Below are positions 12,201 through 59,591 of a stretch of DNA of 64,000 nt, one piece after another. The stretch is from Romanomermis culicivorax (Eukaryota > Nematoda > Enoplea > Mermithida > Mermithidae): contig CAWUHX010000031.1 in assembly GCA_963922205.1 (NCBI GenBank), positions 1,302,001 through 1,366,000 on the forward strand, given 5' to 3'. The notes below the pieces were generated by a model. That model saw nothing but the letters and a program-made list of their open reading frames with translations, had not been told where the DNA came from and did no database searches. Both the position numbers and the translations under genes were made by a program. Numbering within the stretch: position 1 is the stretch's first letter; each line of letters begins with the position of its first letter.

Positions 12201-15200
12201 GTCAACATGTTTTCTAACAGAAAAAAGTGAAATAGTTTCAACATAAGAACCATATAACACCTTAAAACTACAAGAGAGCTGTTTCTATGTGTCCTCCTCT
12301 CTGTTTCACGACTAATTTTAATCGTCTTTTGAACTGGTCAATTCTTCGATTTTGCCTTTTCTCTTGATTTTGGCAAAATTTCGCCCATATTGAAAGAAGA
12401 AACTGATGACTTTAAATTACGCGTAAATTACAAATCTGGATGATTTTTTAACTATTATTGCGTTTAAACAACGTTACAAAACTTTTTTCACAATAGGACA
12501 ACTTTTAATTTGATTTCACACTTTTAATCGAAAAATGACCACTTTTACTAAATTTGTGTATATATGAACACAATGAACGCTAGGGGCATAAAATTTAGCC
12601 CTAAAACCAAGGACAAATAGGAGATTTTAACGCATCAATCTGCATTAAAAAAAACTTTGTCCATTCGGAAATTATGAAAGTCAGCACCGGTCGCCTTTTT
12701 TGGCTCACCCTGTAGTTCCTCTTACTTTTTTGTGCCTCTATCAAAACATCTTCCGTAAAGTTGACTCCACTTTTATCACTGCTCGTAGCTGCGCATTCAT
12801 TTAAAAAATTTGTAAGTTCTGATTCAGATTTCTGATTTTTGCTGAAAACTTTTGCCCCATTTGAGGAAAACCCCCAAAAATTTTTTCCTCGTGAGGAAAA
12901 ATCCATTTTTTCAGTTTCCTTGCTTAAAAATCGTTCAAAATCATTTCTGCTATTTTTTCAACGTTTCCCATTAACTTGCATCTTATTCCGCCAAAAAATC
13001 GACATTTTTTTGCAGAAAGTTTCCAGCTATGACCTACTTGTAAATAAATATTCAAGTGAGTTTACATGGGACAAGCAATAGAATAATTCAACGGCATAAC
13101 CTTTATTTTTTATATTTCTTTGACGACATAAAACAACCTAATTTTGACATAACAAGTAAATCAAACAGTAAACTTTGATAAAAAGATAACAATGAAAAAT
13201 AAAATTTTCAAACCGATTCTGAACAGCTGACAATCTAACCTAAAGATATGAACTTGACCACAGGCCTTTTTTCTGCAAAGGCCAGGTTCCAATGTGCAAC
13301 TTGAGGAAAAATTTTGGTAGCACAGATAAATTTTTGGTTGTTCACTCTAAAATCAATAAATTAGCTTACTTTTATCGAAAAAAGCACCAAAAGCATTTCA
13401 TCCGATTTGCGTCGGTTTTAGGCTTTTAAAATCAAATTTTCTGAGTTTTGATGAGCAAATGAAAAGATAGGTATGAGTGAATTGTTCGGCGCCTACCGCC
13501 GAAATTTTTTTGGGGTTTTGATATTCTAGAACGCTGGAAAATGAACCTTTTTAACTTTTATTCCCTAGACAGAAGGTTTAATTTTTCAGTGAATTTAATG
13601 AATTTTCAGTATGGCAAACTACAATTCAAAAACTAGGAAAGCAACCAAGAATTTTGATTCTTCAACCAGCAAGAATTCCCACTCAAAATGCTTTAATCAC
13701 ACAAATGTTCAAATCTTTTTAAAGACTGCAAAAAGACGTTGGGAAAATAACCGAGAAAAATCTTGCTTTTCGTCAAATTCTGAAAAAAACGACACAGAAT
13801 CAAACATTTATCCATAATATCTTGATAATTAAAAGCTATAAGCATTAGCTAGAATGACATTTTCTAACCGCGCATTGGAATAATATAGAAAAATTATTAA
13901 ATAATAAAAATCCCAGCGCCAAGCGCCGGAAAATTTCAACAATTTTTAATTTTATAAAGCGCAAAATGCACCTCCGAACAGGAAACCATCAAAAAAATTT
14001 TCCTCAAATTGATGCATAAGTACAAAAAATTTTTCCTCAATTTCAGAAAAAATTCCTCAAAAATGGTCGATTGAGGAAAAAAAACTGTGTCTGATTCTTT
14101 ACAGCTTGGCTGTGAATTATCTATAGGAAATAAATTTTTCTTTCATTCACAGAGACAATCCTTTATTGTTGAAGTAACAAGTAAAGTCATTGAAACCATC
14201 AGCTAATGACAACTGTGCATTGCACGCTTTACATTTGGCTCTATCATACTTATAATCGAAATAATCCCAAATCAAACTGATAGTAGGATGGCGCATAAGA
14301 CAGAGAGCTAATGTGCCGTCAGTGTAAAGATTTTTTCATACTATGTATGAAGATAAATTTTGATTTCAACACACCGCAGTAAGTAGCAACTGAGTGATCC
14401 ATGGAAAACAATATTTGAATTTGCATAGTTGCAATTTGAAATCAATTAAATAAATTATTACCAATGTACATTTACAGTAAATAATTGAATAGCATAGCAC
14501 ATGGCAAGTATCACTTTTGCTCCTTTTTATGAACTGAACATAATTTTTTTGACCCATGACCCGGTTTGCTATGAATCGAGTCAGAGGTTTCCGAGCCAAT
14601 TGATCTGATATGTAGAGAAGAACCAAGTAATGATTCTTTGTCTATCCATATAAAAATCATTTACTGTAAAATACTTTTCTCATTAATTTTAATGAGGGTC
14701 TCTCTAACAAAAGAAAAGGCCTTAACTCAGCCTCTAGCTCTGAGATAAGCCGACTTGAAAAGGTATTCCATCCTTGTTTCTATTTCTGTTCTAAGGATAA
14801 GTTCCATTACTACGATAACAGTTCGACGCAGTTATCTCAGGAATAGCCGCCACAAGAAGGTTTATTCCCGACAAAACTTGTATCGCTTCCTGCACGCCTG
14901 TGCGTTGATTGGTATCATACCTGTAATTGAGGGGTTGGGGGACCTCCCCCCCCCCCAGTTTGGCCAACCATATACCCACCCCCCCCCAGTTTGGAAAAAA
15001 TTAGCAAAAAAGTGCCTTTTTTGGGAAAAATTTCGACTTTTTTCGACCCCCTCCCCTGAAATTTCGGATCTACCACCCCCAACTGGTCGGACCTCTTACA
15101 GTATGATTGGTATAGTAGCGGTATACCCCTACCACATACCTGTAATTGGGGGGGATCGGGGGGACGACCTTCATGGTGAAACCTTATACCGAAATGTCGG

Positions 15201-17061: not shown

Positions 17062-17114
17062 CTAGAACATTCTATTCATCAATGACTTGTCTATACCTCG
17101 TGAAAATCAAAACG

Positions 17115-17420
17115 ACAAAGCAAGGCCAGCAAACATGCACGTGGGGGGGGGGTTCGAGGGGGTTTTGACCCCCTCGAATTTTTATTGAACCGCAGCAGAT
17201 TCTTGCTGACCCCCAGCAGATTTGACTTTCCCAGCAATGATTGAGAGGATGACGAAGGAAAATGAGCAAGAGAGAAGAGAAAGTCGTCATAAAAATGGGA
17301 ATGATGCTGTAGTTTAACAATTTTTCTAAACAAATCATACTTGATTCTGAAAAAGTAACATGAAAACTTTAAAAAGTGCTGTCTAAGCAAATAATTTCGC
17401 ATATGTGACTGATATAGGTT
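17115..17420 (-). mobile_element. Truncated CATACATGCACGTG-family element
   Basis: On the - strand this matches 37260-37548: ctcttctctcttgctcatt, tctcaatcattgct, three ctgctggggtc-like repeats and the end ..cccacgtgcatgttt. The other end, equivalent to 37127, was not found, so the copy is truncated or further decayed. Confidence 0.7.
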
Positions 17421-17815
17421 GAATAATTCGAAACAAATGCGCAAAAAAAAAATTTCGGCGCTTCGTCTATAAACACTACTTTTATAGATTTTTTACCAAC
17501 TTTTTCTCGGCTTTCGAGGCAAAAATATTTTTCTATTTTCCTCTAATGACCCTCCTGCCTAAATTTCGTGCAAACAAAGTCCAACCCTTGAAAAACCCTG
17601 GCCACCGGGTCATACCTGGTCAAAGCTCATTTTGTACGTAGCTACCCGAGCCGAATTTTTTTAGGTTGGTTGCCATTTTTCAAAACGGTTATTTCAATAT
17701 TTTCAATTATAGAGCTTTTTCACTCCAAAATGCACAATGATCTATTATATATATACACTTTCGAGCTTATTGTCGTATGCCCAAATCCACGTGGCTGGCG
17801 CGTCAGAAAAATAAC

Positions 17816-17888
17816 GCTCGGTGAGGGCCTCGAACCCTGGAACTTCTGCCTACAAGGCAGACGCGCTATCCAACTGCGCTAACCCAGT
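17816..17888 (-). tRNA. tRNA-Thr(UGU)-like gene or SINE head
   Basis: On the - strand the 73-nt sequence folds as a tRNA: A box TAGCGCAGTTGGATAGCG, D stem GCGC/GCGC, anticodon stem TCTGC/GCAGA with loop CTTGTAG (anticodon TGT), B box GGTTCGAGGCC. The acceptor stem has 5 of 7 pairs and the T stem one mismatch. Those mismatches and its position in repeat-rich DNA suggest a tRNA pseudogene or the head of a tRNA-derived SINE rather than a working gene. No tailing A-run was found downstream. Confidence 0.55.
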
Positions 17889-19182
17889 GGCGTAGGTAGA
17901 GGGTGTGCTCAGGGTGCTTAGTAATAAAAAAAATTTGGGCATGGTTCTCATTATGGAAAAATTTTGGCGAATTTAAAACCAAACGCGTTTTGGCGGACTT
18001 TAAAAGGTCAAAACCTTAAAATTTTCCGGCGCTTCGCGCCGGTCATTGGTATAACACATTATTTTGTATCAGGCCGTTAGCATATCTATTTCCACTTACT
18101 AATTAATGCTCAACAGTTTTTATCAATCAACCTATTGGTGTTTCATATTGTAATTGTTTACAAAATGTATTTCGTCGAAAATTTACATTTTTCATCAATT
18201 CTCTCAATTTCTCTCTCGGGGCCTCGAATTTTCCATACGTTTTCAACATGAAATTTTGGATTTATAGAAGATGAACGTTGAATACGTCATTCTAGAACAG
18301 GGTCATTCTGTGCACTGAGCTCAGTTTTTGGAGCTCGTGCTTAAATTTTTTAGGACGTTTTATGCACAGTGCAGAAATCAGTTTTCATAACATATGCAGT
18401 TCGTATGTTGTTGTTTGAGCCAATTTGTTCACAAGCTGGAATGTCACATCTTATTGTTTAGTCGATGATATTTGACATATTAACCTATGATCTTCATCTA
18501 TTTGACGAAAATCAAGATTTGAAGAATCTAAATTTTTGTTCCTAGTTTGATTTTTGAGTTGTACTTTCATGCTTTCAATATGATTGCTACATTCTGTTCT
18601 TCTATGGAAAATAGTATAATTGACTGCAAACTAGACCGCTTATTCAGGAAATAATTCATTTTTCAGCACTCTAATATCGAAATTCGCTTCAAACTGATCT
18701 TCTCGCTGGGTAGCTGATTAAGAACATCATCTCGTTGCTCAAGTTTGAACATCATCCTAGACTTAGAACTTAAACCTTTGCCATGGAAAGAGTCTAAAAG
18801 CATTCATTTACCAGCGTCATAGGGTATAAAAATTCAAAAAATTTTCCGGCGCTGCGCGCCGGAGGGAAGGATAAATCGAATCCAGTCTATAGTTTTTTAC
18901 TTTGACTAATCACTGAGATGTCGTCAGTGGAATTTATATGCAAATTTTGCCTCAGTTTTTGGTTCCAGAAAAACCAGTTGGTTTAAACCTGCTGATGTTA
19001 GAACAGTCTCCAGTCTCACAGACTCTCACTCAAATGTCAGCGACAATGATGCAGCATCACACGAATTTGTTTTATGAAAGTACAGATTTTTTCTCTTGGT
19101 GCACAAAAAGAGCCCTGTTCTTACAATGCAATTTTGAACTTCTATTCAGGAATACATATTTGTTGCAGAGATTCCTTGTTAA
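17889..19182. other. Intergenic or intronic DNA with two CCGGCG palindromes
   Basis: No gene seen. Contains ttccggcgcttcgcgccgg at about 18021-18039 and ttccggcgctgcgcgccgg at about 18843-18861, each preceded by an aaaattt run as in the MITE-borne copies elsewhere. Bounded on the right by the inverted-arm element. Confidence 0.5.
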
Positions 19183-22100
19183 GACACAATTTCTCTAAGA
19201 CCAAGGTTATGATAAGTAAAAAATTAATCATACCTCAAAAAAACATAGTTTGTACAGTTTTTTGCACTGAGCAACATGCCATTATTAGTTTGATCTAAAA
19301 ATCAAATTTCGCACTGTAATATCAATCTAAAGTTTCAAATTATTTGTAATTTTCGAAATTTCAGGTCACAATCCTTGAAGGCCTATAAGTAATCAGGTAA
19401 TGTCGATCAATAAAACTTTGTCAGTGAATGTAACCATGTTTAGCGTATATGTCTGACACATATAGATATATGTAGCATCAAAATTATGGTTTATACTATA
19501 CTTTAAACTCAAATTTTCAGCAGTTATCAATGACTCAAATGCACACATTTTTGTACCCCATAAAGTGAAATAATGAGTGTCATTGATTAAACTCCACTAT
19601 GCTATGGCTGGATCCCTTAGCCACGTACCTACAAAGTTTTATCAAAATAAAAAAACCATTGAGTGTGCCACAGTGAAACAAGTGGAAGCCACTTTTGAAT
19701 CAAATTATAAACGTTTTTGTTTAAAAATGCAGTCATTCGCCCAAAATTCTAATAATCCAGCTAAACCTTTCAGGCAGTGTAGGCTGACATCTCGGCTACA
19801 TACCCATAAGGTTTGGTCGTAATATCGTTATCTTTTACATGAGAAATTATACAAAGTTAAATACATTCTTGATATTGTTGAAAAAACTTCAAGTGCAAAT
19901 TGTTGTTCTATTTAGTTGGAATATTATTAATTCTAGTTCAAACCGACTACATTGCAGCCACAGTATCGGGCAGCATACCAACCACTTTGCATCAAAGTAT
20001 TGACACCCGTTGTATATTAAAAAACTAGAAAAGCCATGTTCTTTTGGTTAACTTTCAAATTTCCAACAAAAACTGACAAAACTCTGGATCATTTTTGGAT
20101 CATAGGAGCTCAACATAAAATCCACTTGAATCCAATAGAAAGAATTGCTCCAAACCAGATGACATTTTTACAGAGTGAGATCTACATACTAATTATTGGA
20201 ACAATTATTCAAAACAATCTGATTTTAGTAGTTCACTCTCATATTCTAAATTAGGATCAAACATTGCTGGATCCTCGTAGGGTTCTTCTTCATCTTCAAC
20301 ACCACATTCTCCTTTCAGGTTGCTACTATAAAATGTAGTAGGTTCTTCCCGACGACAGCTGGCATCCCTAGCCCAGAATCCAGTAATTTGTTGTGGTGTG
20401 AGGAAGTCAGATCTTACAAAAGATGGGTTCCTCCTCATTTCTTCAGCAACAACTTCAGAATTGAATTTTTGATGATATACAATGCCACTGTTGTATTTTT
20501 CCAGCAAATATTGACATTTTTTCTGTCATCTTATGCTTCTTTAAATCCCAACCTTTTTCCATAACATCAAACGAGTCAGCCTCATAAAACAATTGAAGAG
20601 CTTCTTGAACTTCAGGCAAGCCAGGGATCAAGTGAACACTTTCTAGTGTTCTACTACAGCTTTGTTTTGCCATAGCACGTGAACTTGTTCACTATGGCAT
20701 TGGCTTGTGGTTATCCAAAATAAGATGCTGCAACAAGTTGCAATGAAGTACAAAAGCATTTATACAGCCTTCTTCAGGACAGTTGAAGGCGCTGCTTTCC
20801 ATTTTATATGGCTCATCAGTGGCAGCTGGAAGATCTTCAGATTCTTCTTCGAAGTTGGTGATTGTGATTTTTGGATCAATAGCCATCCAGAACTTTGACG
20901 TTTGAAGGGGTGAAACCTCTGGCTGGTCTTCATGAACCACATGATGGATTTTAGGCTTTGGTAACTGTTCGAAATTCAATATTTTCATCTTGAATATGCT
21001 TCCAGTACCAACTTTGTAAGCTTTAGTTGCCTTGATTTCAGTAGATGTGAAATGGAAATTGAAATAGCTTCTGATACCAACAGCTTTAAGATCCATCTTC
21101 TTGTGTGGGATTTTAAGATTGCCGGTGATGAATGATGTTCTCTTGACCTTTCTATGTGTTGTAGCACACCTGATGAATTCTTCAGCAGTTGAACATTGAT
21201 TGTTTTCATTTATAAACAGTCGAACTTGCATCTCTATTAGTGCAGCAATGCAGTCACATAGGCCTGTACCAAATTGAGGTTCAAAGAAGTCCCAGTTCTT
21301 TATAGTCACGCCTGTTCTCTGAGATATTGTTGGCACCATGAGTAAGGTTGAGGAGCTATGAAAACATCCAGCATTAACAGATCATACGAAAGCTGTGTTG
21401 ATTGCGGGCTGCTCTGCCTTGATTTTTGTCAATGTGTCAGTCAGTATTCCAATAATTGCAATACTGTCTTCTGCAAGCGAGTTGAAAACATGGACAAATG
21501 TGTGGTGGTGTAGAGTCCACTTTTCATCACAAGGGCATATGTGACGTGCCATGGCAAACTGCACATACCAAACCAGCTTGACTGATCTTCCCATCCACTG
21601 GAAGGCAGAAATTTCATTGCCCAATCAAACTGGAGGTAAACATGATTGTCCTGGACGTTGTCTATGATGTCCTTCCATGCTTAATTTTGGTGCATTAATC
21701 TAAGCTGGTGATGATGCCATTCAAATACATTATCGATACTTTCATCTACTAAATATTCAGCTTCAACTTTGTCAGTTTAATTTGCAAATTGGAATTGAGT
21801 CACTGCCTCTTTGATGTCCTTCAGTGTCTTCTTTAACTGCTCATAATTGTCACATTTCATGTTATGAATGTAATTTGTAAATTTCTCCTGTAACTTTGGA
21901 TGGATTGGATCACTAAGACCATGCCATGAACAGTGATCAGAAATATCTAATTTTGGCTTTATGTGGAGTCACTAATCACCTTTTAAATACAATTTTGCTT
22001 CTTTAAGCTTTGATTCAGTTTCTTGTGTCCATGTGGGTCCCATTTATCATAGAAATATCGGAAAATCTTATGTTGGTTCAGTACCTTGTCAGTTTTTGTT

Positions 22101-22990
22101 TAAAATTTGAAAAATCTTTCATCTTATAGTTAAACAAAAGAATGTGGCTTTTCTAATTTTTAATATGATGCAACTTAGTTGGTATGTGGCCACATACTGC
22201 GGCTGCAGTGTAGTCGATTTAGACTAGAATTAATAATATTCCGACTGAATGAAACAACAATTTGCACTTGCAGTTTTTTCAACAATATCAAGAATGTGTT
22301 TAACTTTGTATAATTTCCTATGTAAGAGATAATGATATTACGACCAAACCTTATGGATAAGATGTCAGCCTGCAGTGCCTGAAAGGTTTAGATGGATTAT
22401 TAGAATTTTGGGTATATGACTGCATTTTTAAACGAAAACTTTTATACTTTGATTCCAAGATGGCTTCCACTTGTTTCACTGTGGCACACTCAATGGTTTT
22501 TTATTTTGATAAAAGTTTGCGGGTATGTGGCTAAGGGGTCCAGCCATAATGTAGTGGAGCTTAATCAATGACACTGATTTTTTGACTTTATGGGGTACAA
22601 AAATGTCTGAATTTGAGTCATTGATAACTGCTGAAAATTAAAGTTTAAAGTATAGTGTAAACCATAATTTTGATGCTACATATATCTATATGTGTCAGGC
22701 ATATACGCTAAACATGTTTACATTCACTGACAAAGTTTTATCGATCGACATTGCATACCTGATTACATATAAGCCTTCAAGGATTGTGACCTAAAATTTC
22801 GAAAATTGCAAAAAATTTGAACCTTTGGATTGATGTTGCAAAACGAATTTTGATTTTTAGATCAAACAAATACTGGCATGTTGTTCAGTGCAAAAAACTG
22901 TACAAAATTTGTTTTTTGAGGTATGATTACATTTTTACTCATCACACTTAACTACATGCCTCGGTTGATTCTTACAGAAATTGTGTCTTA
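19183..22990. mobile_element. ~3.8-kb element with ~0.9-kb inverted arms around a transposase-like gene
   Basis: The left arm (about 19183-20085) and right arm (about 22088-22990) are inverted copies. For example, ccattgagtgtgccacagtg at 19658 is mirrored near 22475, and gacacaatttct at 19183 is mirrored near 22983. The arms differ by scattered substitutions and small indels. The 2.0-kb core carries a broken zinc-finger transposase-like gene on the - strand. Terminal bases and target duplication were not resolved, so the element may be larger than stated. Confidence 0.8.
20207..21700 (-). pseudogene. Broken C2H2 transposase-like gene
   Basis: Read on the - strand with several stops and frame changes. 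In order: a segment with QFDWAMKF and SWH-type text (21640-21540), a segment ending near a DNAGCFHS block (about 21390), GVTIKNWDFFEPQFG with GLCDCIAALIEMQV (21339-21200), a C2H2 finger CPEEGC..H..NH (about 20770-20700), and a tail with FLTPQQITGFWARDA (about 20400). This resembles a family of unnamed zinc-finger transposase-like proteins common in cnidarians, sponges and other invertebrates (pattern DNAGCYH..DFSEPQ.GKG.CDR). I cannot assign a superfamily. Confidence 0.6.
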
Positions 22991-24365
22991 AGCATTTTAG
23001 AGTATATGAAAACTCTAAAATTTTTCCGGCGCGGAGGAACAACTTACACTAAATCAATATGATTTTAATTTATTTCTTAACGTTGTTAATGTTCATTTTC
23101 CAGCGTTTTAGAAAGTAAGATTACGAAAATTTTTCCGGCGCTTGCGCCAGACTAACAAATGAATAAAATTGGATAATTTCAATGGGAATCACAGAAATGT
23201 TACTTTGTGTTGAGAAATTTTTCAAATTTGTTACGCCTTGTTATTGATGATCATTGATTAAAAATGATTAACATATTTCAGCTGAAAAAATTTGAGCACC
23301 TGACGGAAAAAAATCCAGAACGCCACTGTAACCGAGCCACGTGGATGATTTTGAAATTGTGGTTGTAGTGGTAGTGGTGAGTGCGGGGCATGCCACGTAA
23401 TGAATAGCCAGACGCACCACTACAACATTATTTTACCATGCTAATGTTCCATTAATCAGTAAATCGTGTGAATTGAGAGTAAAATAACGATTTTGAATTT
23501 TAGGTCAGATAATGCTGAATACAATAAAATCAATGTTACATATGACAAATCTAGAGCGTAGCCATTCCTAATTTTATACAAGCTCGGGTACCTACCAACA
23601 TTTCTACCGATGGCATACTTATCTTTCTTTTGCTCAGCACAATAAAAATTTCAGAACTCAAATACTTGAAAATGAATAATTATAATAGAAACAAAAGATA
23701 ATTATGGTAGAAAAAAACATAATAATTATAGTAGAAGCAAAAAAATAATGCAGTTAACTGAAGAAGTCTCTTATTTTCATTAAATATGCACAGAACTTTT
23801 CGAAGATTACAAACAAAGTCAGCTGAAGCATTTTACATAACGAAAACAATCAAAAGTTGAACAAAAAATAGAAGAACAGCATGCTAAAGTCCGTCCTTGA
23901 GTTAGATTATAGCGAATGATTGCCAGAGCCACAGTCTTTTTTGTGCAAAACTCTTTGATGTACAAAAAATCATTGTACGAAAAAATTTTGTTTATAGACT
24001 TGCGTGCATTTTACACAAAACTTCTTCCAAAGGGAATTTTCTCACACTTAAAATTATGCTTTTCATAGCAGACGAGTATATATACGATATGATACTGATG
24101 AATGCAGCTTTATTTTTGTTATAAACTTCTCATGCAAAATGCTAGAGAATTTCAAATTCATGTCGTTTGTTTGATTGAAGATCAATATTATACTACTTGT
24201 TCATAAATACAACACAGAAGCTTCAACCAATACTGATACAATCGCGCAATAAAACCAAAAAATGTAGTCTGGAATCTGCAGACGCAAAATCGTGATCCTT
24301 TGGAGCATACATTCCCATGGTAGGACCCCTTAGGGTATTGGAAAGGTCCAAAATATGGCCTATAG
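22991..24365. other. Repeat-flanked DNA without a recognised gene
   Basis: Two CCGGCG-type motifs lie at 23025-23035 (half) and 23135-23155 (ttccggcgcttgcgcc), the second in the usual context ccagcgttttaga..aaaatttttccgg. Around 23375-23410 there is a small inverted repeat (ttgtagtggtagtggt / accactacaa). No exon is apparent. Confidence 0.45.
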
Positions 24366-26710: not shown

Positions 26711-26800
26711 AAAAATGCCCAAACGAAATTGAACTAGAGGAAGCTGATAATGATCAATTAGTATACTTGCCTCAAAGCACTGTATTCTGAACATAAATTT

Positions 26801-28515: not shown

Positions 28516-28519
28516 CGTG

Positions 28520-29283: not shown

Positions 29284-29291
29284 GTTAGTGG

Positions 29292-31182
29292 CACTGTTTT
29301 TTTTTGTACTCTACAAAGATTTTTTCCCTTGTACAAAGAAAAATTTTGACAATCTTTGTACTTGTACAAAGATTTTTTTTCCAGGAGGAACGATGTGCGT
29401 CAGTCTCGAGCTATTGCCAATGTTGTCGTCATAGCTGCATACAAAATTGAATCCTGATGTTCGAAATTCCAAAATTCAGAAAATTGAGTTTTGAAAGTTG
29501 AAAACCGACGTGAATCAAATGAGGTTTAAGAAAGCTAGCTCCTGACAGCTTATTTATTGATTTTAGAGCGAGCGATCAAAAATCTATCTGTGCCACTAAA
29601 ATTTTTCCCCAAGTTGCACATGACAACCTGGCCTGTACAAAAAAACCTGAATGCATCCAAGCATACCTAGAAATAAATTGAGATCAGAAATTAAAAGACA
29701 CCAAATAATGAAAGAGATGAATCTTGTTGAAGCTGGAGAGTTACACCAATTTTATCAGTATGTGAATAGTAAACTTTCTGCATCTAGGTATTCCTGATCT
29801 TAAATATAGAGACATAATTGCCATCAGTCCTATTGATAAATAAATAGCTGATTTGCTAAATGATTATTTTTCCTCTATTTCTACCAAACCTGAAAATATT
29901 CCTGATCCTAACCTTACTTCTGATAAAAAATTTGAACATAAATTCTCTTGTAGTTTTGATTACTGTTTTTTTCCACATTTGCACTATAATGTGGAAAAAA
30001 ATCTGGAACGAGGAAAAATTTTTTGAGGTCTTTCCACAAATGTGGAAGAAAAATTTGGGGTTTACAAATTTAAAAGATGCATTTTGGTGCATTTTAGGAG
30101 GTCCAAATCTCAAAATTTCCCGGCGTATTGCGCCGGTTATAACTTTAATAATCATCATTATTCATTAAGTAGCTGAGGCGCGGCTTTTATCATGTCTACC
30201 TTTAATTATCACTTAATCTATAATAGTTTTCATCATCTTAAACTTAGTATCTCATGTTTTAACTGGTCATCTTCAACATTTCATCATAATATTTAATGCA
30301 GATTCACATTTTTTCCTTTTGAGAAAGATCAATACGTCAAGTCTCTATGCTTTATGATGCGATTATTTCTTTGCTAACGTAAAATCAATTCAAAAGCTTC
30401 ATGGAAATATCTTTCGGAAATTTATACTCTTCTTACTCATATATTTTCGACCAAGTTCATGAGAGTTTACAAATAAATTACAGATTTTAATATTTTTCAA
30501 GTAAAATTCTAGAAATTACGACTCTTGAACACAAAATTGGAATCTAATTCTTGAAATAAATGTTCGGAAAATTGATTTTCCAGCATCCCAGAATGTCAAT
30601 ATACCCAAAAAAATTTCCGGCGCTTCGCGCCGGAAACATTACCATCTCTTTTGGGCTTTCACTTGTCATCATAGGGGACTCGACCATCGATTTCTCATGT
30701 AATTTAAAGTCAATTATGCTCTTGGATAGTTTGCTAGAAAATTTGTTCCACAATGCTTGTAGATTAGGCTTTAAGGGCGAACATTTCAATTTTTTCTTCA
30801 ATTTTAATGAATTAACTTCTCTAAAAACACCGGAAGGCTTGAAAAAGCTCAAAAACAGTGTGATAAAGCGTCTGGAAGCATTTTTAAGCCAAAAAACGAG
30901 GATTTTAAGACGAAAAAAAATTTTTTCCACATGTGGAAAAAAATTTGACCCCTTTCCACATTTGTGGAAAAAAGTTCGAGGAAAAAAAACAGTGGTTTTG
31001 ATTTCCTCCCTGTCCTTTCAGTGCTCAAAAATTTCAAACCAACGTTATCACTGGGTTCAGGATTACTGAAAAGTATTTACAAAACGAAAATTTTTTTGCA
31101 CAAAGAAAAATTAAAATGTACAAAGACTTTTGACTCCAATCTTTGTACAAGTACAAAGGGGTGTTGTACAAAAAAAACAGTG
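29292..31182. mobile_element. hAT-like MITE, GTAC word, containing a nested MITE
   Basis: Ends CACTGTTTTTTTTTGTAC and GTACAAAAAAAACAGTG, with exact duplication GTTAGTGG (29284-29291, 31183-31190). The words ctttgtacttgtacaaag (29362-29380) and ctttgtacaagtacaaag (31141-31158) lie near the two ends. Removing the nested element and its duplication (29961-31002) leaves about 849 bp. The body at 29470-29650 matches, inverted, the interior of the CCTC-word elements (accgacgtgaatcaaatga, ccccaagttgcacat), so body and word have been recombined. Confidence 0.9.
29961..30994. mobile_element. hAT-like MITE, CCAC/GTGG word
   Basis: 1034-bp element starting (T)ACTGTTTTTTTCCAC and ending GAGGAAAAAAAACAGTG, flanked by exact duplication GTTTTGAT (29953-29960, 30995-31002). 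The word tttccacaaatgtggaa near 30037 recurs as tttccacatttgtggaa near 30953. The body is an inverted relative of 40152-41169, which carries CCCC/GGGG at the equivalent places. CCGGCG palindromes at about 30119 and 30617 lie at the same relative positions as in that relative. Confidence 0.92.
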
Positions 31183-31190
31183 GTTAGTGG

Positions 31191-31819
31191 CATCGAAAAT
31201 TCTCAAAATCAAGACAATGATTGGAATTTTCTGAACTATACATCTTAATTTTGTACAAAACTTTCTCATAAGATAAGAGTTGTATGCTTTTGAAGCCGTT
31301 CTCCGATCATAACAACAAATTAAACGTACTAATAGAAATCGGCGCTAAGAACCGGAAATTTTCAAAATTCGAGTCAAAAATATGATCAAATAACACTCCA
31401 CTGCAAAAATCTCTCAAGTGAAAGACGGAAAACCGTTAGGGTTTTATTTAAATAGACCCAACGAAAAACTGACTGAAAATATCGCTTAAGTTCTAGCTCT
31501 TACCATTTAGAGAAGCTCTTGAAATGCTTTTTGATTTTCCCCAATGCTGAAAGTTGTCTGGGCGCTTCGCGCGGAGACACATGTTTATTGTGTCGGTCCA
31601 GATGTACAGATCGAAAATGGAGGAGAAATGTTTTATTTCTTTCGTCAACCAAATGTTGAAAAGATCACAATCAATCATCGGTAGTTGCAGAAGAATGTGC
31701 TGAAAAAATGAATTTTCGACGTTTCAGAGGCCTCGAAATCAAAGTTTTTGGGCGCCGAACAAGTTACTTTAGCCAGCCTTTTGATTTTTTCTTCAAAACC
31801 TAGAAAATTCAGTTTTAAG
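31191..31819. mobile_element. Fragment of a CCTC-type MITE body
   Basis: Partial inverted similarity to the interior of 12826-14089, e.g. gcgccgaacaagttact near 31755 and a modified palindrome gggcgcttcgcgcgg near 31560. It continues after the nested element at 31828-32653 (gaatgaaatacaag, tttagagtgagcaac), showing one older element split by that insertion. Termini are not identified on the left. Confidence 0.5.
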
Positions 31820-31827
31820 AGTCTGGA

Positions 31828-32653
31828 CAGCGTTTTTTTGTGCACGGGCATTTGTGCCAATTGGCACAAGAGACCAAAAAAATTTGTGCCAATGGCACAA
31901 AGAATTTTATTCTACTAGAAAGATACTGAAAACTGTGGAAAAGTTTTAGGCCAAAATTTTGATAAAAAGTTAACGTTTATCGTATATAAATTTTTTGTAA
32001 AAACCGTGCCCACCCTATTTTTCAGCTAACCATATCGGTGAAATAAGAAAAAACCGTGCAAGTAGTACACGACGACTCGAAAAGAAATGGAATGCTGAGA
32101 AAATTTAAATAACTCTAGAATTGTTCAGGAAGTTCAAATTGATTCAATGTTCGACTACGAATCTTATTTAACAACAATGTAAAAACTAGTGAAAACAGAG
32201 TCGAAAGTAGTGTAAATTTTCGGTCGGAACATTGCACCATTACCAACGATACTGAATTTTCTATTTGAATGAATCAAACACAAAAAGTAAGAATTTCAGT
32301 TTTAAATCCGAATGTGACTGAATGAACAGAGAATATTCAGATTTCCTTTCCATTCATAATTCATTGACAGCCTATAAACTTTGCCGCAACGATGGTGAAC
32401 AGTGATCCGAAAAGAACTTGTTCGCTTTCGGGTAAAATACGAGTAGATAATATTATATTGATTGATTCGGCGCGTAGCGCCGAAATTTTTTTGCATTTTT
32501 CAACCACTGAATCGTCTAAAAATCAAGGGAATTTAAAGGGAATTTAAAATTTAAAATTTATTTATTGCCAATTGACACAAACGCTCAAAATTTCTTGTCC
32601 CATTCCAAATTTTTTTGTGCCAAAAACCATGTTTTGGCACAAAAAAAACACTG
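31828..32653 (-). mobile_element. hAT-like MITE, GTGCC/GGCAC word, copy 1
   Basis: 826 bp, CAGCGTTTTTTTGTGCAC to GGCACAAAAAAAACACTG, flanked by exact duplication AGTCTGGA (31820-31827, 32654-32661). The words tgtgccaattggcacaa (31853) and gtgcc/ggcac (32616-32645) lie at the two ends. Inverted relative of 39253-40120. One palindrome, cggcgcgtagcgccg, at 32468. Confidence 0.93.
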
Positions 32654-32661
32654 AGTCTGGA

Positions 32662-33161
32662 GCTGACGCGAAGTGAATGAAATACAAGGGAAGTAACTTT
32701 TAATCATTTTTCTGATGAAACTGAGCGAATTTATCAATTTTAGAGTGAGCAACTAAAAATTTATCTCTGATACCAAATTTTTCCACATTGCAACCCGGCT
32801 TGTGCAAAAGAACTCTGATGATTGATTTGAATAATGACTGATCATGTGAGCTTTATTTATGTGTGTGACTGAGAATGTAATCAAAATGATTTATCTGTTA
32901 TGTGGGCTTCTTACTGTGATTTTGAAGAGTGTTTTGAAATTAATTTCTTGGAAAAAACATTGTTTTTTACTACCTAGGCACAATTTTTATGCCAATTAGA
33001 GCAGTGAAAGTGTTTTTATATTTTTATCAAACTTTTGGCATAAAACTTTTCAAAGGTTTTCAGTATGTTATTGCGGTGAAAACATTTTTTGTGCCATTGG
33101 CACAAATTTTTTTGGCCTTTTGTGCCAATTGGCACAAATGTTAGTGCACAAAAAAACACTG
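32662..33161. mobile_element. Right part of an older element ending in GTGCC words
   Basis: Continuation of the CCTC-type body fragment to the left of copy 1 above, passing into DNA with gtgccattggcac and tgtgccaattggcacaa (33083-33137) and a terminal CACTG at 33157-33161. The right end is clear; the left end is lost. It appears to be a chimeric element combining that body with GTGCC ends. Confidence 0.55.
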
Positions 33162-33166
33162 ACTGG

Positions 33167-34105
33167 CATACCCGTATCCAGGATTTTCAAAAAAGGGGGG
33201 AATTTTCAAATTTTTTTTAGAATTTACTGAGTAAGAAGAAAATCTTTTTTTTCAGTAAAGACGACATATTTTCAGTTAGTTTATCTGTGCTTCAGTTTTT
33301 TTACACAGGCTAGGTTGCAATGTGCGACCTTGGGGAAAAATTTTGGTTGCACAGATTTTTGGTTGCTCGCTCTAGAATGAATAAATTAGCTTATGTTTAT
33401 CGAAAAAAATATCAGCTAGCTTTCTTGTATTTCATTCGATTCACGTCGGTTTTAAACTTTCAAAGCCCAATTTTCTGAATTTTGGAGAGAAATATAAAAA
33501 GGTTTGATATGAATTAACTTGTTCAGCGCGCAGCGCCGAAAATTTTTTCGGATTTGGATATTCTGAAACGCTGCAAAATTAATCTTTTCTTTTTTTATTC
33601 CCTAGACAGAAGGTTTATTTTTTCGATAAAGTTTTATGAATTTTCAGTCGGGCAAACTACAATTTAAAATTTAGGAAAGCAACCAAGAATTTTAATTCTC
33701 AATCCACCAAGAATTTCGACTTGGACTAAAAACGTTTTAATCACACAAATGTCAAAATTTTTTGTAAAGATCGCAAAAAAAATTCGCAAAAAACCGAGAA
33801 AAATCTTTCTGTTCGTTAAATTCGCCAAAAAACAACGCAGGATTATACCTTTATGCAAAATATAATGATAATTAAAAGGTGTAAGTATAGCTAAGAATGA
33901 CATTTTCTAACCGCGCACTGGAATGATATAGAAAAATTATTAAATAATTAAAATCCGCCGCGTAGCGTCGGAAAATTTTCACTATATTTTCCATTTTATT
34001 ACGCAAATTTAATTTGGGAATAGTGATGTAGTACAATGATATTCTTGAAAATTATAAATGTAAGGGGGGAATGATCCCCTTCCCCTCCCCCTAAATACGG
34101 GCCTG
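33167..34105. mobile_element. CATACCCGTATCC-ended MITE with inserted MITE body
   Basis: Starts CATACCCGTATCCAGG and ends CTAAATACGGGCCTG; relative of 43314-49001. The left duplication CTGACTGG (33159-33166) is recovered on the right only by joining 34106-34110 to 35483-35485 across the later insertion at 34111-35474. From about 33290 to 34008 it contains a piece homologous to the CCTC-element interior (palindromes near 33527 and 33958), beginning at a terminus-like CAGTTTTTTTACACAGG. Confidence 0.75.
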
Positions 34106-34110
34106 CTGAC

Positions 34111-35474
34111 CACTGTTTTTTCCCCGGGCCTTTTCCCCAAATGGGGAAAGGGCATACATGTAATTGGGGGGAAGTGCTATGGGAACCCCCCCCCCAGAAA
34201 TCGTCGACCATATGGCTAGCCATTGGACGACCCCCCCCCCAGGATTTTCCAATCCTATGGCTAGCCATATGGTAGCCCTAGGGACCCCCATAGTTTTAGT
34301 CGGAAAAATACTGAAAAATGTCATTTTTCCATGAAAAATGTCAATTTTTGAATAAAAAGTGGTCAAAAACGTCAATTTTCTCGGCACTTCGCGCCATAAG
34401 TACATATTTTATCATTTATTAGACAAAAATTACTACTTTTCAAACCGTTTTTCGGACATTTTTCATGGAAAAAATCGAATTTTTTTTTCCTTCAGGGACC
34501 CCTCCCACCAAAATTTTGGGAATTACTGACCCCCGGCCCCAAAAAAGTGCTCCAACCCCCCCAGACCTCGGAGCTCCGTTACATGTATGGGAAAGGGGTT
34601 TCCATTTTCCCGAAGTCGTTTTTTCACCCAAAAATGCTCATAGATGCTTTATTTAAGTGTTTAGAGCTCTTTCAAGCCTTCTTGTGTTTTTGAACTCTAA
34701 TCTACAAGCATTGTAGAACAATTTTTCTAGCAAACTATCCGAGAGCATAATGAATTAGAATTAGATGAGAAATCGACGGTCAAGTCCTTTACGATGAAAA
34801 GTGAGATGCCAGGCACGAAGCGCAGGAAAATTTTTCAAGAATTGACAATCAGCGATGCTCGAAAATCTATTTTCTGACCATTTATTTCAAGAATTATTCA
34901 AATTTTGTCCTTAAAAGTCGTAATTTCAAGAATTTTATATGAAAAATTTTTAAACCAGTAATTTATTTATAAACTTTCAATCTCATGGACTTGGCCGAAA
35001 AAATATAAGTAGAAATTTCAGAAAACTACTTCCATAAAGCTTTTGAATTGATTTTACGTTAGGAAAAAACGAATTACTTCAGAAAGCTTAGAAACTTGAG
35101 GTATTGACCTTTCTCAAAAACCGTGTCAAGAAAAAAATGCGAATCTTCATTAAATATCGCAATTAAAATATCGCAATTAAATATTGAAGATTACCAGATA
35201 AAACATGAGACGTTTAAGATGATGAAAACTATTATAGATTTAGTTAAAATGAAGGTATAGACATATGTACATAATAATGATAATTAAAGTTCGAACCGGC
35301 GCGAACCGCCAGAACATTTTGAGATTATTATGACCTTCTAAAATGCACCAAAATGCATCTTTTCTGTATCCGATCCTCAAAATTTTTTTCCCCAAATGGG
35401 GAAAGAGCCCAAAATTTTTTTCCATTTTCCAAATTTTTTCCCCGAAAAAGCACGATTTGAGGGAAAAAACAGTG
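34111..35474. mobile_element. hAT-like MITE, CCCC/GGGG word, copy 1
   Basis: CACTGTTTTTTCCCC to GAGGGAAAAAACAGTG; flanks CTGCTGAC (34103-34110) and CTCCTGAT (35475-35482) match at 6 of 8. The word ttttccccaaatggggaaa occurs near 34131 and again near 35388. Without the nested 34153-34589 element it is about 919 bp. Same family as 40152-41169, more diverged; its two palindromes (near 34813 and 35297) are decayed. Confidence 0.82.
34153..34589. mobile_element. GC-rich MITE (CATACATGTAA subfamily), copy 1
   Basis: 437 bp, CATACATGTAATTGGGGGG to CCGTTACATGTATG, flanked by exact duplication GGAAAGGG (34145-34152, 34590-34597). It has split the left palindromic word region of its host MITE. A distinctive ccatatggctagcc repeat lies inside, shared with 44936-45368. 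Confidence 0.92.
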
Positions 35475-35497
35475 CTCCTGATTGGCTGGCTCAAAAC

Positions 35498-37976
35498 CAG
35501 TGTTTTTCGTGCCGAAACATGGTTTTTGGCTTTGGCACAAAAAATTTTGAACGTTTGTGCCAATGGGCACAAAATTTTTGGCTGTTCAAACATTAAATTC
35601 CCTCAATTTTTAGACGATTTAGTGGCTTATCTGCTCGTATTTGAACCGAACGCGAACAAGTTCTCTTCGAATACCGTATCAGCATCGTTGCGGCAAAGTT
35701 TATAGGCTGTCAATGAATTATGAATGGAAAGGAAATCTGAATATTCTCTGTTCATTCAGTCACATTCGGATTTAAAACTGAAATTCTTACTTTTTGTGTT
35801 TGATTCATTCAAATAGAAAATTCAAAATCGTTGGTAATGGTACAGTGTTCCGACGGAAAATTTACACTACTTCCGACTTTACTTTCACTAGTTTTTACAT
35901 AGTCGAAAATTGAATCAATTTGAACTTCCTAAACAATTCTGGAGTTATTTAAATTTTCTCAGCATTCCATTTCTTTTCGAGTCGTCGTGAAATACTTGCA
36001 CAGTTTTTTCTTATCGCATTGACATGCTTAGCTGAAAAATAGGTTAGGCACGATTTCTACAAAAAATTAATGCATTAAATGAAAAAAAATTAATTTTTTT
36101 TGAGAAAAAAATTTTGAGCGTTTGTACCAATTGGCACAAAGTTTTTTGATGGTCAAACAGTAAATTTCCTTGATTTTCAGACGTCTTAGGGGCTGAAAAT
36201 GCAAAAAATTTTCGGCGCTGCGCGCCGAGTCGATGTTTATATAATTTTAATTACTCGTATATTTGACCCGACCGCGAACGAGTTCTCTTCGAAAAGTGTA
36301 TTACTATCGTTGCAGCGAACTTTATAGGCTGCCAATGACTGATGAATCAAAAGAAATTCTAAATATTCTCTGTTCATTTAGTCAGATTCAGATTTAAAAC
36401 TGAAATTCTTACTTTTAGTGTTTGATTGATTCAAACAGAAAAATCGATATCGTTGGTATACGATGTTTCGACCGAAAATTTACACAATCATCGACTTTAT
36501 TTTCTCTAGTCTTTACATTGTTGTTAGGATAGATATTCGTAGTCGAAAATTGAATCAGTAATATGAGTTTCCTGAACAATTCTACAGTTATATTTAAATT
36601 TCCTCAACATTCCATTTCTGTTTGAGTCGTCGTGAACCAATTTCTTGCACAGTTTTTTCTTATCTCACTGACATATGGTTAGCTGAAAAATAAGATGGGC
36701 ACGATGTCTACAAAAAATTAATGCGTTAAATTCAAGCGTAGTAGCTATGATTAGGTATATTTTTATCAAACTTCTAGCCTAAAACCTTTCAGCAGTTTTC
36801 AGTATGAAAAATATTAAAAAATAATTTTCACTCTAAAAACGTACTGAAAACCTTAAAAAAATTTCGTGCCGAAGGTTTCATAAAAACATAACTGAAGATA
36901 CTTTACCGCATTAGTTTGCATAAAAATTGCGCCTGCTCTATTTTCTCTAACCACATCTGTGAGATAAGAAGAACTGATTTAGAAAACGGTTTCTACGATC
37001 CGAAAAGAAATCGACTGCTGCGCAAATTCAGATATTTTTATAGACTTTGTCATTAAGTTTATATTTTCCCTTACTTTTCGGCTTCCTTCCTAACAACTAT
37101 TAAAGATTAAATTGGGATGTCTTGTCCTTACATGCATTCTGCTAGGGGTCAGCCAGGACGGGGGGTGGAATACAATTTTTTCCATTCTTGATAATGAAAA
37201 GAAAGGTCTTGGAAAGGTTTTCTGACATCCAGACAGCATATTTTTATAACTATATTAGTCAGATATATTAAATAATTTGCCTAGACAGCACTTTTTACAG
37301 TTTTAATGTTACTCTTTTGGAATCAAGTATGCTTTGTTTAGAAAAATTGTTAAACTACAGAATCAGAATCATTCCCATTTTTTTGACGAATTTCTCTTCT
37401 CTCTTGATCATTTTCCTTCATCAACTTCTCAATCATTGCTAGGGGAGTCAAATCTACTGGGGGTCAGCACGAATCTGCTGGGGGTCAATAAAAATCTGTT
37501 GGGGGTCAAAACCCCCACCAAACCCCTCCCCCCCCACGTGGATGTATGGTCTTGTCTATAATTGCTTTCTCCTGAAAAAAGTCGAAGTCGCGTCGCATAA
37601 ATCTTTGGTTGAAAAATTGTGTCAACACCAAAAATATAAGTTTCGGTTCTCAATCCAACTGAATGAACAGAAAACGTTAATCCTTTCACCAGTCATTGAT
37701 AATCTCAAAGTCTGTTGCGACAATACAAATATACTATTCAAATAGAATCCGCTCGCGTTCGAGACAAAGTAAAGTAGTTAATATTAAACTCATTGAGTCG
37801 GCGCGAAGCGCCGAAAAAATTTTGCGTTTCGAACCCCTAAAATGACTAAAAAATTAAGGAAGTTCAGCCTTGCACCAGCCAAAATATTTGCGCCAATTGG
37901 CCCAAACGCTCAAAATTTTTTGTGCGATTCCAAATTTTTTTGTGCCAAAAACAATGTTTGGTCACAAAAAACACTG
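35498..37976. mobile_element. Composite of three GTGCC-word MITE copies
   Basis: Left end CAGTGTTTTTCGTGCC at 35498 and right end TCACAAAAAACACTG at 37976 are both the same terminus type, pointing inward. Inside lie a forward copy (35498-36075), a second forward copy starting near 36100 (palindrome at 36208), and an inverted copy (about 36830-37976, palindrome at 37799), the last split by 37127-37548. Outer flanks CTCAAAAC (35490-35497) and CTCAAAAA (read across the insertion at 37984) match 7 of 8, suggesting the composite moved as one unit. Confidence 0.7.
37127..37548. mobile_element. CATACATGCACGTG-family element with complete ends
   Basis: 422 bp, CTTACATGCATTC to ACGTGGATGTATG, flanked by exact duplication GTCTTGTC (37119-37126, 37549-37556). 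Contains three tandem ctgctgggggtca-like units near its right end. Relatives at 17115-17420 and around 8060-9316. Inserted in the third copy of the composite. Confidence 0.9.
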
Positions 37977-37983
37977 CTCAAAA

Positions 37984-39250
37984 CAGTGTTTTATTTGTTC
38001 GAAACTTTTTGTCTCATTTGAGGAAAAAACCCAAAAATTTTTTCCTCATGAGGAAAAATTAACTTTTAGTTTCTTTGCGTAAAAATCGCTCAAAATCATT
38101 TCTAATGTGTTTTTTGAACGTTTCTCATTAACTTGCATCCTATCCCGTCAAAAAAGAGACATTTTTTGGCAAAAACACTCGACATATGACTTGCTTGTAA
38201 ATAAATGTTTAAGTGAGTTTACATGACCCAAGCAAGAGAATTATTAACGGACCTTCAATTATTTCTTTTATTTCTTTGACGACATAAAACAACCTAATTT
38301 TGACATAACAAGTAGATCAAACAGTAAACTTTGATAAAAACATAACAATAAAAAATAGAATTCTAAAACTGATTTGGCATAAAGGTATGAACTTGACCAT
38401 AGGGTCTTTGTTCTGCAATGACCAGGTTGGCGAACTTGGCGAAAAATTTTGGTTGCACAGATAAATTTTTGGTTTTTCACTCTAAAATCAAGAAGTTAGC
38501 TTAATTTTACAAAAACCACCAAAAGCTAGTTTTCTTTTATTTCATTTGATTCGCGTCGGTTTTAGGCTTTTAAAACCAAATTTTCTGAGTTTTGAAGAGA
38601 AAATGAAAAGATTGGTTTGAGTAACTTGTTTATCACCTGGTGCCGAAAATGTTTCTAGGATATTCATATTCTAAAATGCTGGAAAATGAGCCTTTTCAAC
38701 TTTTATTTCCTATCCTAGACAGAAGATTTAATTTTCCAGTGAATTTAATGAATTCAGTGGGGCAGACTACAATTCAACACAAAAACTAGAAAAGCAACCA
38801 ATAATTTTGATTCTTCAACCAGCGAAAATTCCCACTTGGACTCAAAATGTTTTAATCACACAAATGTAAAAATCTTTTTAAAGACCGCGAAAAGACTTTG
38901 GCAAAATAGTCGAGAAAAATCTTGCTTTTCGTCAAATTCTCAAAAAACGACACAGGATCAAACATTTATCTATAATATATTGATAATTAAAAGCTATAAT
39001 CATTAGCTAGAATGGCATTTTCTAACCGCGCATTGGAATAAAAATAGGAAAATTATTAAATAATTAAAATCCCGGCGCGAAGCGCCGGAAAATTTCAACA
39101 ATTTTCAATTTTATAACGCGTAAAATGCACCTTCGAACAGAAAACCATCAAAAAACTTTTTCTCAAATTGGTGCCTAAGTACAAAAAAATTTTCCTCAAT
39201 TCCAAAAAAAATTCCTGAAAAATAGTCTATTGAGGAGAAAAGAAACTGTG
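37984..39250. mobile_element. hAT-like MITE, CCTC/GAGG word, copy 2
   Basis: 1267 bp, close in length to 12826-14089 (1264 bp). Starts CAGTGTTTTATTTG, ends GAAACTGTG. Left duplication GCTCAAAA (37976-37983); the right copy (40127-40134) lies beyond the later insertion at 39253-40120. Words ttttcctcatgaggaaaaa (38040) and ttgaggag (39229) mark the ends; cggcgcgaagcgccgg at 39073. Confidence 0.88.
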
Positions 39251-39252
39251 GC

Positions 39253-40120
39253 CAGTGTTCTTTTTTTGTGCCAAAACATGGTTTTTGGCACAAAAAAAAT
39301 TGGAATGGCACAAAAAATTTTGAGCGTTTGTGCCAATTGGCACAAAATTTTTGGCTGGTCAAAAATTAAACTTCCTTGATTTTTAGACGTCTTAGGGGCT
39401 GAAAACGTAAAAAATTTTCGGCGCTTCGCGCCGAGTCATCGAATATAATATTTTCTATTTGTATATTTGACCCGAACGCGAACGATTCCTCTTCGAACAG
39501 TGTATTAGTATCGTTGCAGCAAACTCTATAGGCTGTCAATGTCAACGACTGATGGATGAAAAGAAATTCTGAATATTCTCTGTCCATTCAGTCAAATTCG
39601 GATTTAAAACTGAAATTCTCACTTTTCGTGTTTGATTGATTCGAATAAGAATAATAGAAAAATCGATATCGTTGGTAATGGTACAATGTTTCGATCGAAA
39701 ATTTACACAATTTTCGACTTTATTTTCTCTAATAGTCTTAACATTGTTGTTAAATATATCTTACCTAAAGATATTCATATTCGTAGTCAAAAATTGAATC
39801 AGTTTGAATTTCCTGAACAATTCTAGAGTTATTTAAATTTTCTCAGCATCCATTCCTTTTTGAGTCGTCGTGAACTATTTTCCCGCACAGTTTTTTCTTA
39901 TCTAACTGACATGTTTAGCTGAAAAATAGGTAGGGCACGATTTTTACAAAAAAGTAATGTGTAAAACGTTAACTTTCCATCCATCAAAATTTTTGGCCTA
40001 AAACTTTTCCGCAGTTTTCAGTATGTTTCTAGTAGAAAAAAAATTTTTCTGCCATTGGCACTAATTTTTTTGGCCTCTTGTGCCAATTGGCACAAATGTC
40101 CGTGCACAAAAAAAACGCTG
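39253..40120 (+). mobile_element. hAT-like MITE, GTGCC/GGCAC word, copy 2
   Basis: 868 bp, CAGTGTTCTTTTTTTGTGCC to GTGCACAAAAAAAACGCTG, flanked by exact duplication ACTGTGGC (39245-39252, 40121-40128). Words gtgccaattggcac at about 39331 and 40081. One palindrome cggcgcttcgcgccg at 39419. It inserted across the right border of copy 2 of the CCTC-word element, after that element had landed. Confidence 0.94.
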
Positions 40121-40151
40121 ACTGTGGCTCAAAAAACTACTCCGCTCCGCT

Positions 40152-41169
40152 CACTGTTTTTTTTTTCCCCCGGGCCTTTTCCCCAAATGGGGAAAGGGAT
40201 CAAAATTTTTTTCCCCATTTTCCCGAAGTCGTTTTTTTCGCTTAAAAATGCTCACAGACGCTTTATTTACGTGTTTTTGGGCTTTTTCAAGCCTTCTGGT
40301 GTTTTTAGACCCGTTAATTCATCAAAATTGAGGAAAAAATTGAAATTTTCGAGTTCAAAGTTTAATCTACAAGCATTGGAACAAACTTTCAAGCAAACTA
40401 TCCAAAAGCATAATGACTTTGAATTACATGAGAAATCGATGGTTAAGTCCTCCATGTTGACAAGTGAGAACCTAAAAGGGATGTTAATGTTTCCGGCGCG
40501 AAGCGCCGGAAAAATTTTTTGGGTATTGATATTCTGCGACGCTAGAAAATCAATTTTCCGAACGTTTATTTCAAGAAGTAGATTTGAATTTTGTGTTCAA
40601 AAGCGGTAATTTCTAGAATTTTACTCGAAAAATTTTAAAACCAGTATAATTTATTTGTGAACTCTCATACTTGGTCGAAAATATATGAGTAAGCAGAGTA
40701 TAAATTTCCGAAAGATATTTCCATGAAGCATTTAAATCGATTTTACGTTAGAAAAGAAATAATTGCATCAAAAAGCTTAGAGACTTGACGTATTGGTCTT
40801 TCTCAAAAGGAAAAAATACGAATCTTCATTAAATGTCATGATAAAATATTGAAGATTACCAATGAAAACATGAGATAATACGTTCAAGATGATGAAAACT
40901 ATTATAGATTATATGATAAATGAAAGTAGACATGCTAAAAGCCGCGCCAGGGGTTAGTAATGCATAATAATGATTATTAAAGTTATAATCGGCGCGAAGC
41001 GCCGAAAAATTTTGAGATTATGACCTTCTAAAATGCACCAAAATGCATCTTTTCTGTATCCGATCCCCAAAATTTTCTTCCCCAAATGGGGAAAGAGCCC
41101 AAAATTTTTTTCCCCTTTCCGAATTTTTTTTCCCGAAAAAGCACGATTTGGGGAAAAAAAAAAACAGTG
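40152..41169 (+). mobile_element. hAT-like MITE, CCCC/GGGG word, copy 2
   Basis: 1018 bp, CACTGTTTTTTTTTTCCCC to GGGGAAAAAAAAAAACAGTG, flanked by exact duplication GCTCCGCT (40144-40151, 41170-41177). Word ttttccccaaatggggaaa at about 40177 and ttccccaaatggggaaa at about 41079. Palindromes ccggcgcgaagcgccgg (40492) and cggcgcgaagcgccg (40991). The frame at 40055-40609 is a by-product and resembles nothing known. Confidence 0.95.
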
Positions 41170-59527: not shown

Positions 59528-59591
59528 AGCCACCCGATGGGTGAAGACTGTAAATTTTGGTGTAAATTTGCAAACACCGTTTGTAAATATT

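Follow-up and report, generated by a model that had tools for sequence, protein, structure and literature searches.

Genes and mobile elements of the window

The window, i.e. the whole stretch of 64,000 nucleotides analysed here, corresponds to bases 1302001–1366000 of contig C31 in the Romanomermis culicivorax assembly that was searched (359,112,060 bases in 595 contigs). A profile search identified exon matches to the Lon, HORMA and cactin families, interspersed with transposable elements. No transposase domain was found in the 71 ORFs scanned, out of 124 in the window, and a search against a phage collection gave no matches. The region 58315–63528 is retroelement-like: it contains an aspartic-protease domain, and one of its frames matches the viral fusion glycoprotein family PF24664 (E 1.2e-14). 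Furthermore, an inverted pair of about 900 bp (19179–20079 and 22086–22991, 84% identity) encloses frames (20205–21624) that look by eye like C2H2 fingers and have no Pfam match.

The window also carries a set of MITEs, which are short, non-coding, bounded by inverted tips and a target duplication and present in high copy number. Indeed, a single pattern from the body of one family, family B, retrieves 1174 right ends genome-wide, while the reversed-pattern control retrieves none. Units without large inserts measure 826–1267 bp. Five elements (starting at 29292, 29961, 31828, 39253 and 40152) combine CASTG-type tips with a perfect 8-bp duplication and a sixth lies at 35498–37976; the duplications of three others (12826/7–14089, 34111–35474 and 37984–39250) were read by eye. 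The earlier note, which had described window MITEs carrying palindromic words near their ends and 8-bp target duplications, is thus borne out, and the pattern also occurs elsewhere in the genome. The words found in the window are CCCC, CCAC, CCTC, GTGCC and GTAC (and complements); TGCAC, from the rest of the genome, brings them to six.

Family B includes a CCCC-word MITE on the forward strand (40152..41169, perfect duplication GCTCCGCT), with long matches elsewhere in the genome at 95–98%, and a more diverged CCCC-word copy, B3 (34111..35474, forward, duplication CTGCTGAC/CTCCTGAT with 2 mismatches), that contains a foreign 439-bp insert at about 34151–34589. A CCAC-word member (29961..30994, reverse strand, perfect duplication GTTTTGAT) lies inside a GTAC-word element (29292..31182, reverse, perfect duplication GTTAGTGG), for which 40 genome matches were scored, itself included, at 97–100%. 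The word list of the earlier note holds as given but needs amending in two respects: the GTAC element extends as far as 31182 and encloses the CCAC element, and at its right tip 29961–30994 has CCTC as the word closest to the end, unlike the CCAC of its family.

The CCTC word is carried by T1 (12826..14089, forward, start at 12826/7), whose left tip is decayed and whose duplication TCTGATTC, read by eye at 12819–12826 and 14090–14097, has its first C in common with the tip, and by T2 (37984..39250, forward), one copy of whose duplication GCTCAAAA, the right one, is split by the 39253–40120 insertion. A fragment of the T body without ends lies at 33296..34007 (forward). GTGCC-word elements comprise a family G MITE (31828..32653, reverse, perfect duplication AGTCTGGA), a second MITE (39253..40120, forward, perfect duplication ACTGTGGC), a longer element with further G sequence duplicated inside (35498..37976, forward, duplication CTCAAAAC) and an end fragment (33021..33161, forward) whose tip is intact at 33161 and for which a partner end was looked for and not found. 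Two other pairs of ends (10140–14089 and 36648–40608) were rejected as chance.

Elements are nested tip to tip at 37976–40134, where the CCTC element has inserted into the duplication that bounds a GTGCC element, and another GTGCC element sits at the CCTC tip. A GC-rich hairpin with a variable three-base loop, (C)CGGCGC-nnn-GCGCCG(G), occurs inside MITE bodies (twice in B, three times in the CCTC family Tx, and in T and G) as well as outside MITEs. Its window sites are 18026–18042, 18845–18863, 30614–30636, 32466–32484, 36212–36228, 37798–37814, 39072–39088, 39418–39434, 40490–40512 and 40989–41005.

Identity of the words at the two ends

Genome sampling was seeded from the window elements. 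In 73 elements (30 CCCC, 21 CCAC, 12 GTGCC, 6 CCTC, 3 TGCAC and 1 GTAC), the word that predominates in the 85 nt next to each tip was compared between the ends. It is identical at left and right in 67 of the 73, a count in which copies of one family are not independent; in the remaining 6 the matching word is tied with another (four in Tx, with CCAC tied at one end, one GTGCC and one TGCAC), and there is no mismatch. When the end words are permuted, agreement averages 20.5 and reaches at most 35 in 5000 permutations, and at family level the commonest word agrees between left and right in 7 of the 7 families compared. The claim of the earlier note that both ends of a copy use the same word therefore stands. 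CCAC words are also present in all four CCTC copies of Tx. Ten of the 30 CCAC loci (L032, L035, L040, L041, L044, L050, L053, L055, L056 and L059) were left out of the consensus and of this comparison by filters on tip or length; their ends carry CCAC words. The comparison also left out L010, a copy of a window element (L001) and two chance pairs, and both T elements entered it with ends a few bases short.

A check less prone to sampling bias starts from the first 100 of the 1174 right ends retrieved with the body pattern. They divide into 60 CCAC, 37 CCCC and 3 TGCAC, classified by the word and the flank next to it; some of the palindromes are decayed. The corresponding left-end search gave 465 matches (none in the control), 32 of them with their letters, under a pattern whose gap limit favours CCCC. 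Pairing left and right ends by coordinates yielded 16 pairs, of which 15 are CCCC/CCCC, one is CCAC/CCAC and none is mixed; 14 span 951–1018 bp and the other two 1275 and 1568 bp. Some ends depart from the rule taken strictly: one of the 97 CCAC or CCCC right ends (C3:1462036) has an inner palindrome made of one CCCC and one CCAC-type arm, and four (C4:1409719, C7:117247, C7:1369944 and C7:2128605) have one CCTC-type arm; at these five ends the departure is one base in one arm.

One apparent mixed-word element (L010, 2524–3845), with GTGCC at the left, CCCC at the right and a perfect duplication, was rejected as it is part of a tandem array on contig C307 (18922–22595), in which a CCCC element and flanking GTGCC sequence recur with a period of about 1330 bp. 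Such tandem copying can imitate mixed-word elements. Globally, the words are fixed per subfamily and there is no copy-by-copy swapping.

A common scaffold at the ends

The ends share a layout consisting of a CASTG-type tip, a T-run and an array of short words, 4–6 bp in length and in part arranged as palindromes. In type 1 ends the words are centred at 0/14/22/46 from the first word, and in type 2 ends at 0/18/38/62/70. With one representative or consensus per word as input, word positions coincide between families 36 times versus 10.4 at random (equalled in 0 of 5000 trials) and 44 times versus 18.8 (1 of 5000). Ends of the same type coincide at 2.4 and 2.9 positions per pair versus 0.87 for ends of different types, i.e. 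about threefold better. Most differences in register are missing members. The first type 1 word of GTGCC is GTGCAC, which was left unscored; in type 2 ends, TGCAC is without a first word that was scored and CCCC carries CGGG at position 18; CCTC type 1 has two scored words only. GTAC type 2 is off register (0/25/52/58).

Many of the words lie in short inverted repeats with spacers of 0–8 nt, and both arms change together. The words could then be stems of hairpins or cruciforms, or chromatin or host-factor sites, rather than sites for a transposase, with pairing keeping the arms matched. This explanation seems improbable: pairing accounts for the arms of one palindrome, but does not explain why one word recurs from palindrome to palindrome, in lone copies that have no partner arm and at either end of the element.

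One body under several words

The CCAC element at 29961 and the CCCC element at 40152 align tip to tip with 83% identity over 1007 columns, and the consensus of 30 CCCC copies (mean divergence 1.2%) aligns with that of 20 CCAC copies (3.0%) at 87% over 1010 columns. The earlier note was therefore right that related bodies carry different words, and one and the same body is found with CCAC, CCCC and TGCAC. The third base of the word is C in CCCC and A in CCAC at 9 of 9 aligned half-sites, two of which, those nearest the right tip, are gapped in the consensus alignment and were read from a second alignment only; 1 of the 27 other word bases differs, and one CCCC half-site is itself CCCG.

Both families carry, in the same orientation at both ends, a repeat that measures about 42 bp and follows the pattern word, 8, word, 24, word. 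The left and right copies are 88% identical in the CCCC family and 81% in the CCAC family, a resemblance that could come from gene conversion homogenizing the two ends of an element without any selection on recognition. However, between left and right the words differ at 0 of 12 positions and the flanks at 5/30 and 8/30. The only positions of the repeat that are family-specific at both ends are three word positions, whereas two positions in the flanks distinguish left from right in either family, which argues against homogenization. Moreover, conversion predicts no register common to families with unrelated middles, and this explanation is therefore given very little weight.

Outside the words, CCAC and CCCC differ more at their ends (37/161) than in their bodies (80/813; p = 1.5e-5), in a test that registered the first word one base off and so counted 11/36 word differences, whereas CCCC and B3 show no such excess at the ends (16/152 vs 108/702). 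Replacement of both ends by those of an unsampled relative is thus as possible as a change in place; it was rejected as a proven cause of the difference. The four-point sums for left ends (0.446, 0.477 and 0.519) lean weakly to grouping CCCC with B3. The ends of CCAC and CCCC elements are homologous.

The resemblance extends to CCTC. About 245–270 bp of one end of Tx match the CCCC consensus at 74–76%, and about 70 bp of the other end at 73–75%; the middle has only short repeats in common with it, and the Tx words, CCAC included, occupy corresponding positions. The GTAC element shares 99 bp at 85% with the CCTC element at 12826 and 162 bp at 72% with that at 37984, as the earlier note had indicated for its interior, and 201 bp at 77% with the related fragment at 33291–33486.

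New outer ends and composite elements

Three copies on the CCCC body (L061–L063) carry TGCAC words at both outer tips. Two have outer duplications with one mismatch each (ATCTTTAG/CTCTTTAG and CATCTGTA/CGTCTGTA), and one, whose left tip is TAATG, has a duplication that is perfect as read by eye (AATTCAGG). The old CCCC left end is recognizable about 80 bp inside the left TGCAC end in L061 and L062 and is more decayed in L063, while the right CCCC end has been lost and replaced after CTGTATCCGAT or a variant of it in all three. In these copies, newly acquired outer ends enclose a fossil CCCC end.

The CCAC element within GTAC ends provides a second case. In 10 of the 12 loci L031–L042, GTAC sequence flanks the CCAC element on both sides, and in two on one side; the 18 CCAC loci L043–L060 have no GTAC flank. 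The inner duplication, called in 9 of the 10 composites (the inner tips of the tenth, L035, were not called), reads GTTTTGAT or the complement of it, and in two of them deviates by one base. The outer GTAC duplications include eight different ones (GTTAGTGG, TTTCTAAT, ATACATAT, ATGTGGAC, CCTGCCAG/CCTGCTAG, GTTCCATG, TTTCTTGT and CCCACTAG), beyond which L036 and L037 have an imperfect pair in common. The composite is therefore present at at least eight sites and has transposed as one piece seven times or more. It shows directly how the body of one family comes under the word of another.

One could still regard all these elements as separate MITE families with unrelated ends, their common body sequences being due to chance nesting: words are fixed within subfamilies, and CCTC (T) and GTAC bodies have only short stretches of DNA in common. 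Set against this are the 87% identity of the CCCC and CCAC consensuses from tip to tip, the register common to families and the TGCAC ends, with outer duplications, around the same body in three copies, all of which make such an account very doubtful. Word switching is a rare event that occurs at the level of subfamilies, in at least two forms.

The mobilizing enzyme

The target duplications are 8 bp long; in the 30 CCCC loci, 25 are perfect and 5 have one mismatch. The target motif GTNCGNAC is matched at 152 of 408 positions versus 105 in shuffled sequences (shuffled maximum 137), and just 11 of 69 duplications conform to nTnnnnAn in full. GTNCGNAC is reported for hobo, a hAT element, and the P-element motif, GTCCGGAC, is close to it (PMC3276498, consulted in part). 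Duplication length and motif thus suit hAT (hobo), and P nearly as well.

The tips of hAT elements are typically of the YARNG type, which CAGTG fits and CACTG and CACCG do not. The hAT domain PF05699 gives 1837 candidates in the genome, and the 150 that were scored all exceed the cut-off. The downstream flanks at 20 of these 150 places and two complete 6-kb hAT loci were read, and none yielded an autonomous element that combines CASTG ends with one of the six words. Nine of the 20 flanks have TAG[AG]GATG tips followed by other arrays (GGATCC; GGATCC with GGTACC; GGGTCC; GAAACC), and 11 have no recognizable tip. CASTG word ends seen in such flanks were rejected as the hAT's own, being MITEs past it or next to it. 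The word palindromes or MITE sequence concerned lie past the hAT tip in L065, L066, L067 and L070; in L074 (the same place as L084) they are part of a nested MITE bounded by a separate duplication, and in L083 they come from a CCAC MITE with its left tip facing the gene. Word variation also occurs in coding-linked hAT loci with TAG[AG]GATG tips (L064–L067, L070, L073, L074, L080 and L082).

A mobilizer of the P superfamily, with a THAP domain, would leave the logic of the words unchanged. The 8-bp duplications and the target motif suit it too, and the THAP domains of Galileo bind several sites inside the ends of the element, according to the part of the source consulted (PMC3688188). Yet the P domain PF21787 has 0 candidates in this genome, where hAT domains are abundant, with the proviso that the control genomes are silent too. 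A P-type mobilizer is considered unlikely, and a hAT/BED enzyme is taken as the most likely mobilizer of the CASTG families.

Proposed word recognition and word switching

The reading preferred here, to which we give a probability of about 0.68, is that these are hAT-type MITEs built on one end scaffold, that the DNA-binding domain of each family's transposase reads the word and that the elements follow the diverging word preferences of their enzymes. The word would be the binding site of this domain, most likely an N-terminal BED zinc finger; the tip and the spacing would suit a conserved enzyme core, and the word a variable finger. As related transposases diverge in word preference, their elements would follow by two routes, either a concerted change of all the words at both ends, as may have happened between CCCC, CCAC and CCTC, or the acquisition of new outer ends with another word, as for the CCCC body under TGCAC and the CCAC element within the GTAC element. 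We infer the reading of the word by a transposase domain, the hAT/BED identity of that domain and selection by the enzyme as the driver of concerted change. The proposal of the earlier note that the word is a replaceable recognition site that lets MITEs switch enzyme is upheld in part, by the identity of the words at both ends, the different words on related bodies and a constant layout of the kind that a phased recognition site predicts; free swapping is replaced by rare changes at subfamily level, and the switch of enzyme is a deduction from these patterns.

The individual ingredients of this scheme are already known, namely phased subterminal repeats, BED specificity and the varied interiors of Ds elements. 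According to the part of PMC10368747 that was available, the BED fingers of Hermes bind a quasi-palindromic pair of short repeats adjoining AT-rich DNA, and a one-base shift impairs cleavage. The left end of Hermes (STR1-STR2) is like the ends described here in having a short, quasi-palindromic word beside AT-rich DNA, strictly phased from the tip; unlike them, it concerns one element and one motif, whereas six words occupy common positions across the MITE families, for which BED binding is putative. In the Ac/Ds system of maize, non-autonomous elements likewise have their tips and repeated subterminal hexamers in common while their interiors vary, but in the portion of PMC3260210 consulted the Ds classes either retain the hexamer AAACGG or are devoid of it, and no class with a replacement word is mentioned. 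Related BED-type domains prefer diverse motifs, and for the hAT proteins examined the motif is matched in the subterminal regions of the elements that encode them; this work on CGGBP and hAT DNA-binding domains resembles the present case in associating related domains with different motifs but deals with the protein side and, in the sections consulted, mentions no element body under several words (PMC8097297). Coral CMITEs have related interiors and less conserved ends; their authors tie them to piggyBac-like transposons, and the consulted part of the paper describes no word arrays (PMC2872659). A literature search by title and opening of the abstract, thin on subscription journals and thus weak evidence of novelty, found no account of MITE bodies under alternative words on a shared scaffold. 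The earlier note's remark that it knew of no such described system needs narrowing, parts of it being known, as the Hermes BED fingers on palindromic subterminal repeats illustrate (PMC10368747, in part); what is apparently new is the interchange of words on a constant register, their concerted change and the composites that preserve an old word.

These elements bear on the question of how MITEs retain access to a transposase when enzymes diverge or disappear. They offer a putative recognition site that can be read directly, in six versions on one scaffold, and that changes on a traceable body. They constitute a natural mutational series for tests of the DNA-binding specificity of transposases and of whether co-resident transposons evolve orthogonality. 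More tentatively, and with somewhat less than even confidence, the nematode genome may harbour coexisting and mutually exclusive transposase–element address codes that use one end scaffold and differ in the word alone, MITE lineages changing address by rewriting their words or by being wrapped in the ends of another family and leaving fossil addresses behind. If so, the history of enzyme switching would be readable from the DNA.
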